This document shows positions 282 to 42,501 of a DNA stretch of 42,501 nucleotides, piece after piece. The notes under the pieces are model-generated. The model was not told the DNA's origin. It ran no database searches and worked only from the letters and a program-made list of their open reading frames with translations. Both the position numbers and the translations under genes were made by a program. The stretch is from Eubacteriales bacterium (GTDB taxonomy: Bacteria; Bacillota; Clostridia; Monoglobales; Firm-18). Positions within the stretch are counted from its first letter, which is position 1. The number at the start of each line of letters is the position of its first letter. The stretch lies in NCBI GenBank assembly GCA_028697835.1, contig JAQVDK010000008.1:1-42501 (forward strand). The letters run 5' to 3'.

Positions 282-1121
282 TCATTGTACATTCCTTTCA
301 AGCATGCTTTTAATTGCCTTATACCCTTCTTCAATGGTAAGAACGTCACTTGGAGCATCGAAGCCTTCCTTGCGAAGCTCATGCATAAGCTCTGCAACCT
401 GGGGAACATCAAGCCCCAGGCTTTTTATTTCATCAACACGGGAAAAAACCTGTTTAGGAGTGCCATCCATAATAATGCTTCCGGTGTTCATGACGATAAC
501 CCTGTCCGCACAAACAGCCTCGTCCATATTATGGGTAATTAGCACAATAGTTATGTTTTCCTCACGGTTTAGCTTTGAAAGGGTTGCAATAACCTCTTTC
601 CTGCCAATGGGGTCCAGCATAGCGGTAGGCTCGTCCAAAACAATGCATTTTGGCTTCATGGCCAAAACGCCGGCAATGGCAACACGCTGTTTTTGCCCGC
701 CCGATAAAAGGTGCGGTGCATGCCTTTTATATTCCGACATACCAACGGTCTCCAAAGCCCAATCCACTATTTTTCTAATCTCCTGCGATGGAACGCCCAA
801 GTTCTCCGGCGCAAAAGCAACATCTTCTTCAACAATTGTAGCCACAAGCTGGTTGTCCGGATTTTGAAAAACCATCCCTGTCATCTGGCGTATTTCATAA
901 AGAAGGCTCTCGTCAAGGGTATCCATGCCGCCAACATAAACCTTCCCCCCGGAAGGCAAAAGTATTGCGTTAAAATGCTTGGCAAGAGTGGATTTTCCGC
1001 TTCCGTTATGACCTAAAACAGCCACAAACTCGCCCTTTTCTATCTTTAGGTTAATATTGTCCAAAACCTCTTCATTGCTGCCCTCGTAATATCTAAATTC
1101 AAGATTTTCTGTTATAATCAT
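282..1121 (-). CDS. ecfA1: ECF transporter ATP-binding protein EcfA1
   Basis: ABC ATPase of an energy-coupling-factor importer, peripheral on the inner face of the membrane, powering uptake of vitamins or metals through interchangeable S components. From the chosen start it has 279 residues, with Walker [10 protein letters not shown] (about 37-45), Q-loop VFQNPDNQ, signature LSGGQKQR, Walker [13 protein letters not shown] and H-loop LITHN. The C-terminal extension after the ATPase core is typical of EcfA proteins. The start at 1121 is preferred because GGGAGAAGCT precedes that ATG. The ATG four codons upstream (1133) has no ribosome site and itself overlaps this Shine-Dalgarno. The stop is immediately followed by the TTG start of ecfA2. 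A vitamin B6 kinase gene ends 47 nt upstream on the same strand. Confidence 0.92.
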
Positions 1122-3552: not shown

Positions 3553-4147
3553 CGGCCTTCCCCCTTAATCTAATAAGATTAATTCCACCAAGGATAAGCC
3601 CAAATATGATAAATCCACCCGGAGGAAGAACAGCCATGATAGCAGGCTGATAGGATGAGCCAAACAGCGAAAGTCCAAACCAAGTTCCGTTTCCGATTAT
3701 CTCTCTGAAAGAAGCGATAATCACAAGCGCTCCTGTAACTCCAAGCCCCATGGCCAAACCATCAACAATACTGTCCGTAACTTTGTTTTTTGATGCGAAA
3801 GATTCTGCACGAGCAAAAATTACACAGTTTACAACAATAAGAGGGATAAAAATTCCCAAGGATTTGGAAAGCTCCGGCAAAAAAGCTTTTAACAATAGAT
3901 CAACAATCGTTACAAATCCTGCTATAACAATAACATATGCAGCAATACGGATTTTATCCGGAACCAATTTTCTTATGGCTGATATGGCTAAATTAGCACA
4001 CATCAGGACCGCAGTTACAGAAAGGCCCATGCCCAAACCATTTTTTACGGACGATGTTGTGGCAAGTGTAGGGCACATACCCAAAAGCTGCACAAACGTT
4101 GGGTTTTCTTTAAACAGACCACTTCTTAGTATATCAATTTTTTTCAA
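3545..4147 (-). CDS. rnfE: Rnf complex subunit RnfE
   Basis: Membrane subunit paralogous to RnfA, inserted with inverted topology. The 200-residue protein carries NPTFVQLLGMCPTLATTSSVKNG near the N-terminus and IPLIVVNCVIFARAE in the middle, the two cysteine-bearing half-helix motifs, followed by hydrophobic segments and a short basic tail. The start is TTG at 4147, with GGAGG about nine bases upstream. The rnfG reading frame ends inside it at 4134, a 14-bp overlap. Confidence 0.94.
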   Translation of the reverse strand: MKKIDILRSGLFKENPTFVQLLGMCPTLATTSSVKNGLGMGLSVTAVLMCANLAISAIRKLVPDKIRIAAYVIVIAGFVTIVDLLLKAFLPELSKSLGIFIPLIVVNCVIFARAESFASKNKVTDSIVDGLAMGLGVTGALVIIASFREIIGNGTWFGLSLFGSSYQPAIMAVLPPGGFIIFGLILGGINLIRLRGKADV

Positions 4148-30694: not shown

Positions 30695-31054
30695 TTATAG
30701 TTCTTTGCCGCATTTTGCGCAAAAAGCGCTGTCATCGCTGACCTGGGCATTGCATGAAGGGCATGCCTTAACTGATTTGATTTCGTTTAATTTCTTCCGA
30801 TATTCTTCTATTTCGGCAAGCCGCTCGTCGATATACTTGCAGTGAGCCTCTACCTCTTCCGAGGATACGGAGTTGTCCTTATATCCTTGGTAGATAAGCT
30901 TTCCTATGGATTCGTACCGTTCTTTTATGTCGCTGTTTGCCGCCGAGATTGCCAAAGTATATTTGGACTGTTCAACAACCTTGCTTGATTTTTTCATAGC
31001 AGTAGAAAAAATATTTGAAGTGGTTTTCTTTAGATTATCAAAAAAATTATCCAT
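30695..31054 (-). CDS. Zinc-ribbon protein with helical N-terminus
   Basis: 119-residue protein. The N-terminal 85 residues are charged and helical, with SKVVEQSKYTLAISAANSDIKERYESIGKL split over two heptad-like stretches, suggesting a coiled coil. The C-terminus is a single zinc ribbon, CPSC (about 97-100) and CAKC (112-115). No membrane segment. Similar small proteins occur widely in Firmicutes without assigned function. AAAGGAGG precedes the ATG, and TTGCAA-17-TAATAT lies upstream. Confidence 0.78.
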   Translation of the reverse strand: MDNFFDNLKKTTSNIFSTAMKKSSKVVEQSKYTLAISAANSDIKERYESIGKLIYQGYKDNSVSSEEVEAHCKYIDERLAEIEEYRKKLNEIKSVKACPSCNAQVSDDSAFCAKCGKEL

Positions 31055-31109: not shown

Positions 31110-31242
31110 TAATAAAGGATATAATGAAATTCGTTTATACTCGATGAAATTCGCTTACATTCATTATATCATATCCTTTATTTAATTACGCCTTCGGCGC
31201 AATGATGGATATGATGAAATTCACTTACATTCATTATATCAC
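31110..31242 (-). repeat. 70-bp repeat family, locus 1
   Basis: On the minus strand, 31235-31166 is one complete 70-bp unit. A second unit begins at once but breaks off after about 24 bp and is followed by a degenerate copy of ATGAAATTCG. The unit matches the right-end array (42306-42501) at about 61 of 70 positions and has the same length. It contains the extended -10-like TGATATAAT, an 8-bp inverted repeat GATATGAT/ATCATATC, and the hairpin TTGCGCC-GAA-GGCGTAA. It occupies most of the non-coding interval 31055-31340. Confidence 0.9.
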
Positions 31243-33601: not shown

Positions 33602-33871
33602 TACCGCACTAGTCGGGGCGTTAGCGGTGCCCTGTACCCATAATCCGCTATAATGGGGACGAATGCTCATTTGAGGTATTAAAGCTTTAAGGTCTGAACT
33701 ATTATCAGCGTGTTGACGGCTCGGTCCTGTGCAACAGGATGCTGTGAACCTCGTCAGGTCGGGAACGAAGCAGCGATAAGCAGATTTTCCTGTGTGCCTC
33801 AGGGGTGCCGGGCTTGAGCGTTGATGATAGGTATCGCTTAGGGCTTTGTATCGATTTTGAGCTGTGCGGTA
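33602..33871 (+). ncRNA. ffs: Signal recognition particle RNA, large bacterial type
   Basis: RNA scaffold of the SRP, which targets nascent membrane proteins with Ffh. The 5' Alu-type part has GTTAGCGGTGCCCTGTACCC and the downstream ATCCGCT, as in Bacillus scRNA. The conserved S domain (helix 8) has GTCAGGTCGGGAACGAAGCAG near 33754-33774, closing with GTTGACGG upstream. The 5' end TACCGCAC (33602-33609) pairs with the 3' end GTGCGGTA (33864-33871), giving about 270 nt. The location directly upstream of dnaX is the same as in Bacillus. Only 28 nt separate it from dnaX, so transcription may continue into dnaX. Confidence 0.95.
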
Positions 33872-41742: not shown

Positions 41743-42231
41743 ATGGAAAGACGAGATAAACATAACTATTATTTGGATATTGCCGAAACTGTGCTGGAGC
41801 GTGGCACGTGCCTAAGGCGCAATTTTGGAGCTATTATCGTTAAAAATGACCAAATTATTTCCACCGGATATACAGGTGCGCCAAGACGCAGGAAAAATTG
41901 CATAGACCTTGGATATTGCAGGCGTGAGCAGCTGCAAATTCCCCGAGGGGAGCGATACGAACTTTGCCGCTCTGTCCATGCCGAGGCCAACTGCATTATA
42001 CACGCATCAAGGAACGAAATGTTAGGCTCTGTTTTGTATTTGGCGGGACGAGATATGCGAACCGGAGAGCTTGTGCCCGATGCTTCAAGCTGTGCAATGT
42101 GTAAAAGACTGATTATAAACGCCGGAATTGATAAGGTGATTATCCGCAACACAAAAGATAAATATACGGTTATTGAAGTTCAAAGCTGGATTGATGACGA
42201 CGACTCCCTGTCGGATACCCTTGGATATTAA
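41743..42231 (+). CDS. Deoxycytidylate/cytidine deaminase family protein (ComEB-like)
   Basis: 162-residue zinc deaminase of the dCMP deaminase group, expected to convert dCMP to dUMP for dTTP supply. The zinc site is shown by SVHAEANCIIH (His, catalytic Glu) and SSCAMCKRLI (two Cys). RNFGAIIVKNDQIISTGYTGAPRR is the typical nucleotide-binding segment, including the GYTGAP loop. The N-terminus contains HNYYLDIAETVLERGTC. A clear Shine-Dalgarno is missing; an in-frame alternative start was not found upstream. It follows rpiB after 80 nt and closes the operon. Confidence 0.88.
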   Translation: MERRDKHNYYLDIAETVLERGTCLRRNFGAIIVKNDQIISTGYTGAPRRRKNCIDLGYCRREQLQIPRGERYELCRSVHAEANCIIHASRNEMLGSVLYLAGRDMRTGELVPDASSCAMCKRLIINAGIDKVIIRNTKDKYTVIEVQSWIDDDDSLSDTLGY

Positions 42232-42305
42232 AGCTAAAAGTCGAACGCTCTCGTTGTTTGTCATAATTTTTGGAACAATAGTTCTACCATTTTTTACAAG
42301 TTTGT

Positions 42306-42501
42306 GATATAATGAGCGTAAGCGAATTTCATCATATCCATCCTTGCGCCAAAGGCGAGATTTAATAAGGGATATGATATAATGAGCGTAAGCGAATTTC
42401 ATCATATCCATCCTTGCGCCAAAGGCGAGATTTAATAAGGGATATGATATAATGAGCGTAAGCGAATTTCATCATATCCATCCTTGCGCCAAAGGCGAGA
42501 T
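42306..42501 (+). repeat. 70-bp tandem repeat array, locus 2 (runs off the window)
   Basis: A 70-bp unit is repeated perfectly, with period starts at 42311, 42381 and 42451; the third copy is cut by the right edge, so about 2.8 copies are visible. Each unit contains TGATATAATGAGCG (extended -10-like), the 8-bp inverted repeat GATATGAT/ATCATATC, and the small hairpin CGCC-AAA-GGCG. The same family, with nine substitutions and no indel, occurs in inverted orientation at 31110-31242. The stretch 42232-42305 before it has no gene that I can see. Confidence 0.93.

Follow-up and report, generated by a model that had tools for sequence, protein, structure and literature searches.

A palindromic repeat family that follows TATAA, and a candidate mode of insertion at −10 boxes, in a draft Eubacteriales genome

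Many bacterial genomes carry small palindromic repeats, whose mobilisation and choice of target are mostly obscure. PATE-like elements derived from IS200/IS605, and REPs with RAYT, are imperfect palindromes without terminal inverted repeats, in which a short 5′ target fixes the orientation and the right end is target-like. Products of single-strand transposition of the IS200/IS605 type are strictly oriented and contain hairpins but no terminal inverted repeats; their short 5′ target is left unaltered, and their right end resembles it. BOX elements, in turn, are built of modular or tandem units. MITEs with internal promoters, in-frame palindromic insertions and clustered elements have been reviewed, including the promoter-carrying Correia (NEMIS) MITEs located upstream of genes and the Rickettsia palindromic elements (RPE), palindromes of ~100–150 bp that occur as in-frame insertions within protein genes (PMC10969869). 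The sections of that review considered here describe no element as targeting the −10 box (PMC10969869), and a literature search of incomplete coverage returned no description of the present family, nor of any miniature element that targets the −10.

The array at the window end and its dispersed copies

The window (the whole stretch of DNA analysed, 42,501 nucleotides) is the entire contig C26 of a draft genome of 1.79 Mb in 116 contigs, and at its right edge an initial annotation had reported a perfect 70-bp tandem repeat. TRF recovered this repeat at 42305–42501 with a period of 70, 2.8 copies, 100% matches and no indels, copies 1, 2 and the partial copy 3 being identical in sequence. Truncation at 42501 is a contig end falling within a repeat and not biology. 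The same locus extends into contig C22, which shares 288 bp with window 42214–42501 and differs there at two positions (42341, 42411); its array has three units, after which a ParB/Noc-like gene (MEVLSLFNRSN...) begins; the true number of units may be higher, or may vary between strains. The 70-bp unit is framed arbitrarily; a natural unit runs from one TATAA to the next (Table 1), and the head-to-tail units abut at TATAA with no spacers, in line with the earlier statement that this is not a CRISPR. The inverted copy reported at 31166–31235 was also recovered: it matches the array at 88% (BLAST), and an in-register count by eye of 42311–42380 against its reverse complement gave the claimed nine substitutions and no indel. 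Its unit lies in the leader of a 119-aa gene (30695–31054, minus strand). Elsewhere in the window, 33604–33869 (plus strand) matches the bacterial large SRP RNA at 197 bits.

Table 1. Coordinates of repeat units and their parts in the window. The target at the 5′ junction is assigned by analogy with the filled and empty rplN sites described in the text.
Feature	Position	Strand	Remark
5′ junction, extended −10 TGATATAAT	42305..42313	+	target TATAA at 42308–42312; first base of element, T, at 42313
Unit 1, 65 bp	42313..42377	+	followed by TATAA 42378–42382
Unit 1, outer stem of hairpin, 5′ arm ATCATATCC	42331..42339	+	
Unit 1, inner hairpin CGCC-AAA-GGCG	42347..42357	+	
Unit 1, outer stem of hairpin, 3′ arm GGATATGAT	42370..42378	+	overlaps next extended −10
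Unit 2, 65 bp	42383..42447	+	followed by TATAA 42448–42452
Unit 3, cut at contig end	42453..42501	+	continued in contig C22
Second locus, one full unit	31169..31233	−	TATAA at 5′ side 31234–31238, at 3′ side 31164–31168
Second locus, further copy, partial and rearranged	31121..31163	−	

A search of the genome for further copies found them, and the repeat is dispersed as the initial annotation held. With 100 bp of the array as query, BLAST gave 31 matches below E 1e-4, a covariance model gave 34 at E up to 0.1, and array repeats reached E values down to 1e-98 at 20 places, which excludes chance. With the C22/C26 overlap and the scaffold-gap duplicates in C35 and C44 merged, these amount to 19 distinct loci of one to three units each. 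At C35:4027–4308 and C44:15250–15486 the same sequence flanks a run of N on both sides, a scaffolding artefact that makes copies appear more numerous than they are. Copies within an array are identical or nearly so. Two of the 19 loci (C45 and C65:24288) hold the first half of the unit only, and the copies in C21, C65, C95 and C101 are shortened in the second half and lack the 3′ TATAA; across copies, the 5′ boundary is the more regular of the two.

Members also occur in UR.bin154 (G003, Bacillota), which belongs to the same taxonomic family as the host, in Ruminococcus sp. MAG RUG12270 (G044), in Christensenellaceae OttesenSCG-928-K19 (G051) and in G048, from another family of the same order. 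Covariance-model searches of further members of the host's taxonomic family (G001, G002, G004, G005 and G007) found no copies. In the class-wide search the best 11 candidates per genome were scored, and absence elsewhere is weak evidence. A strict exact pattern had no matches in genome contigs, and a gapped one matched nine stretches, five of them true members and four chance matches, mostly coding; in viral contigs neither kind of pattern found a convincing member. A phage or plasmid origin was set aside, the unit having no match in phage or plasmid records, as was membership of the G344 matches, which have mainly the TTGCGCC/GGCG inner hairpin in common with the family and are probably a different repeat. 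Both in G003 and in RUG12270, TGGTATAAT forms the junction between the unit and other palindromic modules. One such composite, in G003 contig C8 (L039 1269–1378), is directly followed by a TPP riboswitch, and the intergenic regions beside the element in G048 (L102, L105, L108) are full of other small palindromic modules.

Unit structure, junctions and gene context

The unit plan is TATAA, then TGAGCG... (~65 bp including a covarying hairpin) ...TATGA, then TATAA. Read towards the gene, TATAA is followed by TGAGCGTAAGCGAATTTC, the arm ATCATATCC, ATCCTTGCGCC, AAA, GGCGAGATTTAATAAG, the arm GGATATGA and again TATAA, the right end of the element being TATGA or TGTGT before this last TATAA. In 25 copies from five genomes, 222 of 225 cells of the outer 9-bp stem are standard pairs (150 of 153 if only the 17 distinct arm pairs are counted), and pairing as good was found in 0 of 20,000 shuffles, which ignore relatedness. 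More than one Watson–Crick pair type occurs at seven of the nine stem positions (2, 3, 4, 5, 7, 8 and 9), and the arms in G048 (AAGCCAAAT/ATTTGGCTT) are wholly different but complementary, with the core TAATGAGCGNAGCGAATTTCA and the inner TTGCGCC/GGCG kept despite the changed arms. It is therefore the pairing that is kept. The molecule that folds may be RNA or single-stranded DNA, and the data fit either. A palindrome around the −10 was considered as the conserved structure and rejected: in first copies, conservation of its upstream arm is limited to the inner five bases, and it is the downstream hairpin that covaries instead.

The 5′ junction of the first unit reads TATAAT (16) or TTTAAT (3) at all 19 loci. 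Nearly all of these junctions are preceded by TG, and most conform to TRTGN-TATAAT, the extended −10 of Gram-positive bacteria. Hexamers resembling a −35 box are enriched 16–18 bp upstream, in the unique flank. Scored with an approximate weight matrix of our own, their mean over all 19 sites was reached by 1 of 20,000 shuffles, that over the 16 sites left after removal of three genic or antisense ones by none of 20,000, and the score at 16–18 bp exceeded that at each of 81 other offsets. Such boxes include TTGCCA-18 before mreB, TTGAAA-18 before lepA, TTGAAA-17, TTGAGT-17 and, twice, TTTACA-17 (one of these before gltX); sites C104 and C93 have no recognisable −35 in the flank. Copies in G048 have GGTAAT or GATAAT at the 5′ junction, not TATAAT.

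Genes downstream include mreB, lepA, gltX and parA/soj-like, mcsA-like, NAD-synthetase-like, veg-like and hisH-like genes, among others, the names (that of the ParB/Noc-like gene included) having been read from N-terminal sequences, with a family-library search for the TIGR03915 protein only. At the six sites between co-directional genes (C26/C22, C21, C44, C35, C42 and C101) all copies read with the genes; most other sites lie between divergent genes, which give little orientation information but again are promoter regions. Exceptions in orientation or placement are C35:1977 and C45, the latter antisense, and the orientation at C93 is ambiguous. At C101 the unit directly follows the terminal TTTAA of a gltD-like gene, and at C107 TTTAAT stands at both ends of the first unit. 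An extended −10 with hairpins, a REP/MITE-like character and local tandem amplification, all put forward initially, agree with these data; the suggested role as a nucleoid or replication site finds no support, the copies occupying 5′ leaders of housekeeping genes that have no relation to one another. As separate observations, two copies are found at chromosome-partition genes, one before the parA/soj-like gene (C70) and the other being the window array before the ParB/Noc-like gene, and the former element is immediately preceded by a parS-like palindrome, TGTTCCACGTGGAACA (L008 ~1459–1474, corresponding to C70 ~3578–3593).

Insertion sites and a candidate mechanism

Filled and empty sites could be compared between rplN and rplX in the ribosomal operon, where UR.bin154 carries a 59-bp element. 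The filled site reads GAAGTCCTATAA, TGCGAG...TTTGTGT, TATAA and GGGAAGG; the empty sites read GAAGTCCTATAA and AGGGAGG in the host genome, and GTATTATAA and GGGAGG in G005. The flanks match, and the relative shows a clean gain of 59 bp. The 5′ TATAA belongs to the coding end of rplN (Leu and stop codons) and so predates the insertion; the second TATAA represents either a 5-bp duplication of the target or the right end of the element itself. Since this site is inside an operon, what the sites share is TATAA itself and not promoter activity. This is the one clean filled/empty pair, and it is in the relative, not in the host genome. In the latter, the array C95:383–505 sits in frame within a TIGR03915 gene (E 2.4e-67), at GATATAA/TGAGCG, and adds residues missing from the homologues in G002, G010 and G011. 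It is the one exception to the earlier claim that the repeat encodes no protein, which holds in general, all other copies being non-coding or at gene ends. The copies are insertions, and their target is unusual; that insertion occurs at TATAA is supported, from sequence comparison, by the one clean site pair, the one in-frame insertion and the uniform junctions.

We consider it probable that the family is a small, non-autonomous, palindromic mobile element that targets TATAA, and hence −10 boxes, and that itself ends in TATAA. Such an element would insert in one orientation directly 3′ of TATAA (or TTTAA), and its first base, T, would complete TATAAT, the −10 box of sigma-A, so that most copies would separate the −10 from the start codon and point to the gene, the original −35 keeping its place further upstream. 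The terminal TATAA of the element would leave a −10 beside the gene and supply a new target. Re-insertion behind its own end, or recombination between identical units, could then produce head-to-tail arrays such as 42305–42501, array growth through recombination being also compatible with the data. The inner part folds as one long hairpin, with the outer 9-bp stem and an inner CGCC/GGCG stem, and this might make up the mRNA's 5′ leader, if the leader is transcribed, with a possible effect on expression, or be the single-strand substrate of a mobilising enzyme. Transposition may be active and may follow a single-strand mechanism; another enzyme that makes a 5-bp duplication would suit the data no less well. 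A Y1 transposase (PF01797, the only class searched) had no match in the host genome (95% complete) or in G003 (82%), and inspection of Y1 gene flanks in G004, G044, G001 and G051 for the element core or TATAA-bounded ends found nothing convincing. The idea of a portable promoter, raised initially, stands in so far as a second −10 is brought at the 3′ end of the element, but the 5′ −10 belongs to the target (rplN in the relative) and in most cases is part of a promoter that was already there, complete with a −35.

Other origins of the family were weighed. The array does lie at a contig end, and two loci have duplicates across N runs, as an assembly artefact might produce, but the same locus with the same flank occurs on two independent contig ends, most loci are contig-internal with unique flanks, and the genomes of relatives, assembled by others, also contain the family; an artefact is thus hardly conceivable, and the repeat family is real. 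It is very unlikely, too, that no mobile element is involved and that slippage or recombination generated the units from a duplicated promoter region, the dispersed copies being old segmental duplications: identical or near-identical copies within arrays are what local duplication gives, but not 19 places with unrelated flanks, nor the clean 59-bp gain in the relative between flanks that match the empty site.

Less easily dismissed, although still unlikely, is a regulatory leader maintained by the host, in which a cis-acting RNA hairpin linked to promoters, or else a palindromic operator, has spread by duplication and been kept for joint control of many genes. The location of copies between −10 and start codon, their orientation towards the gene, an intact 5′ end with a variable 3′ end, the covarying stem and an end-to-end, if sub-threshold, similarity to Rfam RF02952 would all suit such a leader. 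The unrelated functions downstream (mreB, lepA, gltX, parA-like, hisH-like and others) argue against it, as do copies in coding sequence, in the rplN–rplX operon and antisense at C45, and the lack of any copy in close members of the taxonomic family. A MITE of the classical kind, mobilised by a DDE transposase that duplicates a 5-bp TATAA target, we rate as improbable but marginally easier to entertain. It would explain the direct repeat of TATAA on both sides of the element at rplN and the TTTAAT on either end of the first unit at C107; the ends (TGAGCG.../...ATATGA or TGCGAG.../...TTTGTGT), however, form no terminal inverted repeats, and the target is near-invariant, whereas most duplications vary.

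The TATAA-targeting mobile element, if correct, would explain accumulation at promoters, gene-ward orientation, perfect tandem arrays and tolerance by the host in one step, and some leader 'structured RNA' families may then be insertions and not regulators. A broader version is possible but held with some doubt: a miniature element targeting the −10 box, with a 3′ end that restores the extended −10, would colonise promoters without silencing them and build tandem promoter–leader arrays by re-insertion into its own end, and related modules of Clostridia, possibly RF02952 (an Rfam 'sRNA'), would be of the same kind. The rplN–rplX site and the TIGR03915 gene are ready sites for scoring presence and absence.

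Comparison with described families

An Rfam search of the array returned nothing at gathering score. RF02952 (dfrA-dnaX RNA) aligns with the element end to end (1–76 of 76), at 26.6 and 33.9 bits, below its gathering score of 48.6. Its consensus, UAUAAuuAUUUCAuCAUA...UAUGAUAUAAU, has the same plan, a TATAA-bounded hairpin with a 3′ arm running into an extended −10, but lacks the GCG core and the CGCC/GGCG inner hairpin, and it is annotated as an sRNA gene. A literature search found no paper on RF02952, and a class-wide search with it gave no match anywhere, controls included, and is therefore uninformative. In the viral contigs, L087, a provirus contig partly similar to streptococcal satellite phages, has at 925–975 (minus strand) a hairpin resembling RF02952 rather than the window unit, which ends in TATGATATAAT shortly before a start codon.

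Like RPE, the family includes an in-frame insertion, here once, in the TIGR03915 gene, but nearly all copies are in promoters, and both sequence and hosts are different. Modular or tandem units are a likeness to BOX elements, and promoter content with a position upstream of genes is one to Correia elements; the latter carry a whole promoter of their own and terminal inverted repeats, whereas here the 5′ −10 is the target and such repeats are lacking. The element is MITE-like in being short (~65 bp), non-coding and dispersed over 19 loci, but its ends are not inverted copies of each other. It differs from REPs in having no GTAG/CGTC tag at its end, which is TATAA, GTAG occurring only inside the core of some copies, and the RAYT protein (Y1, PF01797) has no match in the host genome. 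In the IS200/IS605 type, a cognate TnpA with matching ends was not found by the Y1/PF01797 searches of the host genome and the relatives examined, and the target here, TATAA, is a difference. The likeness to this type lies in an imperfect palindrome of fixed orientation with no terminal inverted repeats and a target-like right end, in a 5′ target, TATAA or TTTAA, that the element follows at 19 of 19 loci and that was pre-existing and is unaltered at rplN, and in a subterminal hairpin, the 3′ arm of whose covarying stem reaches the right end.
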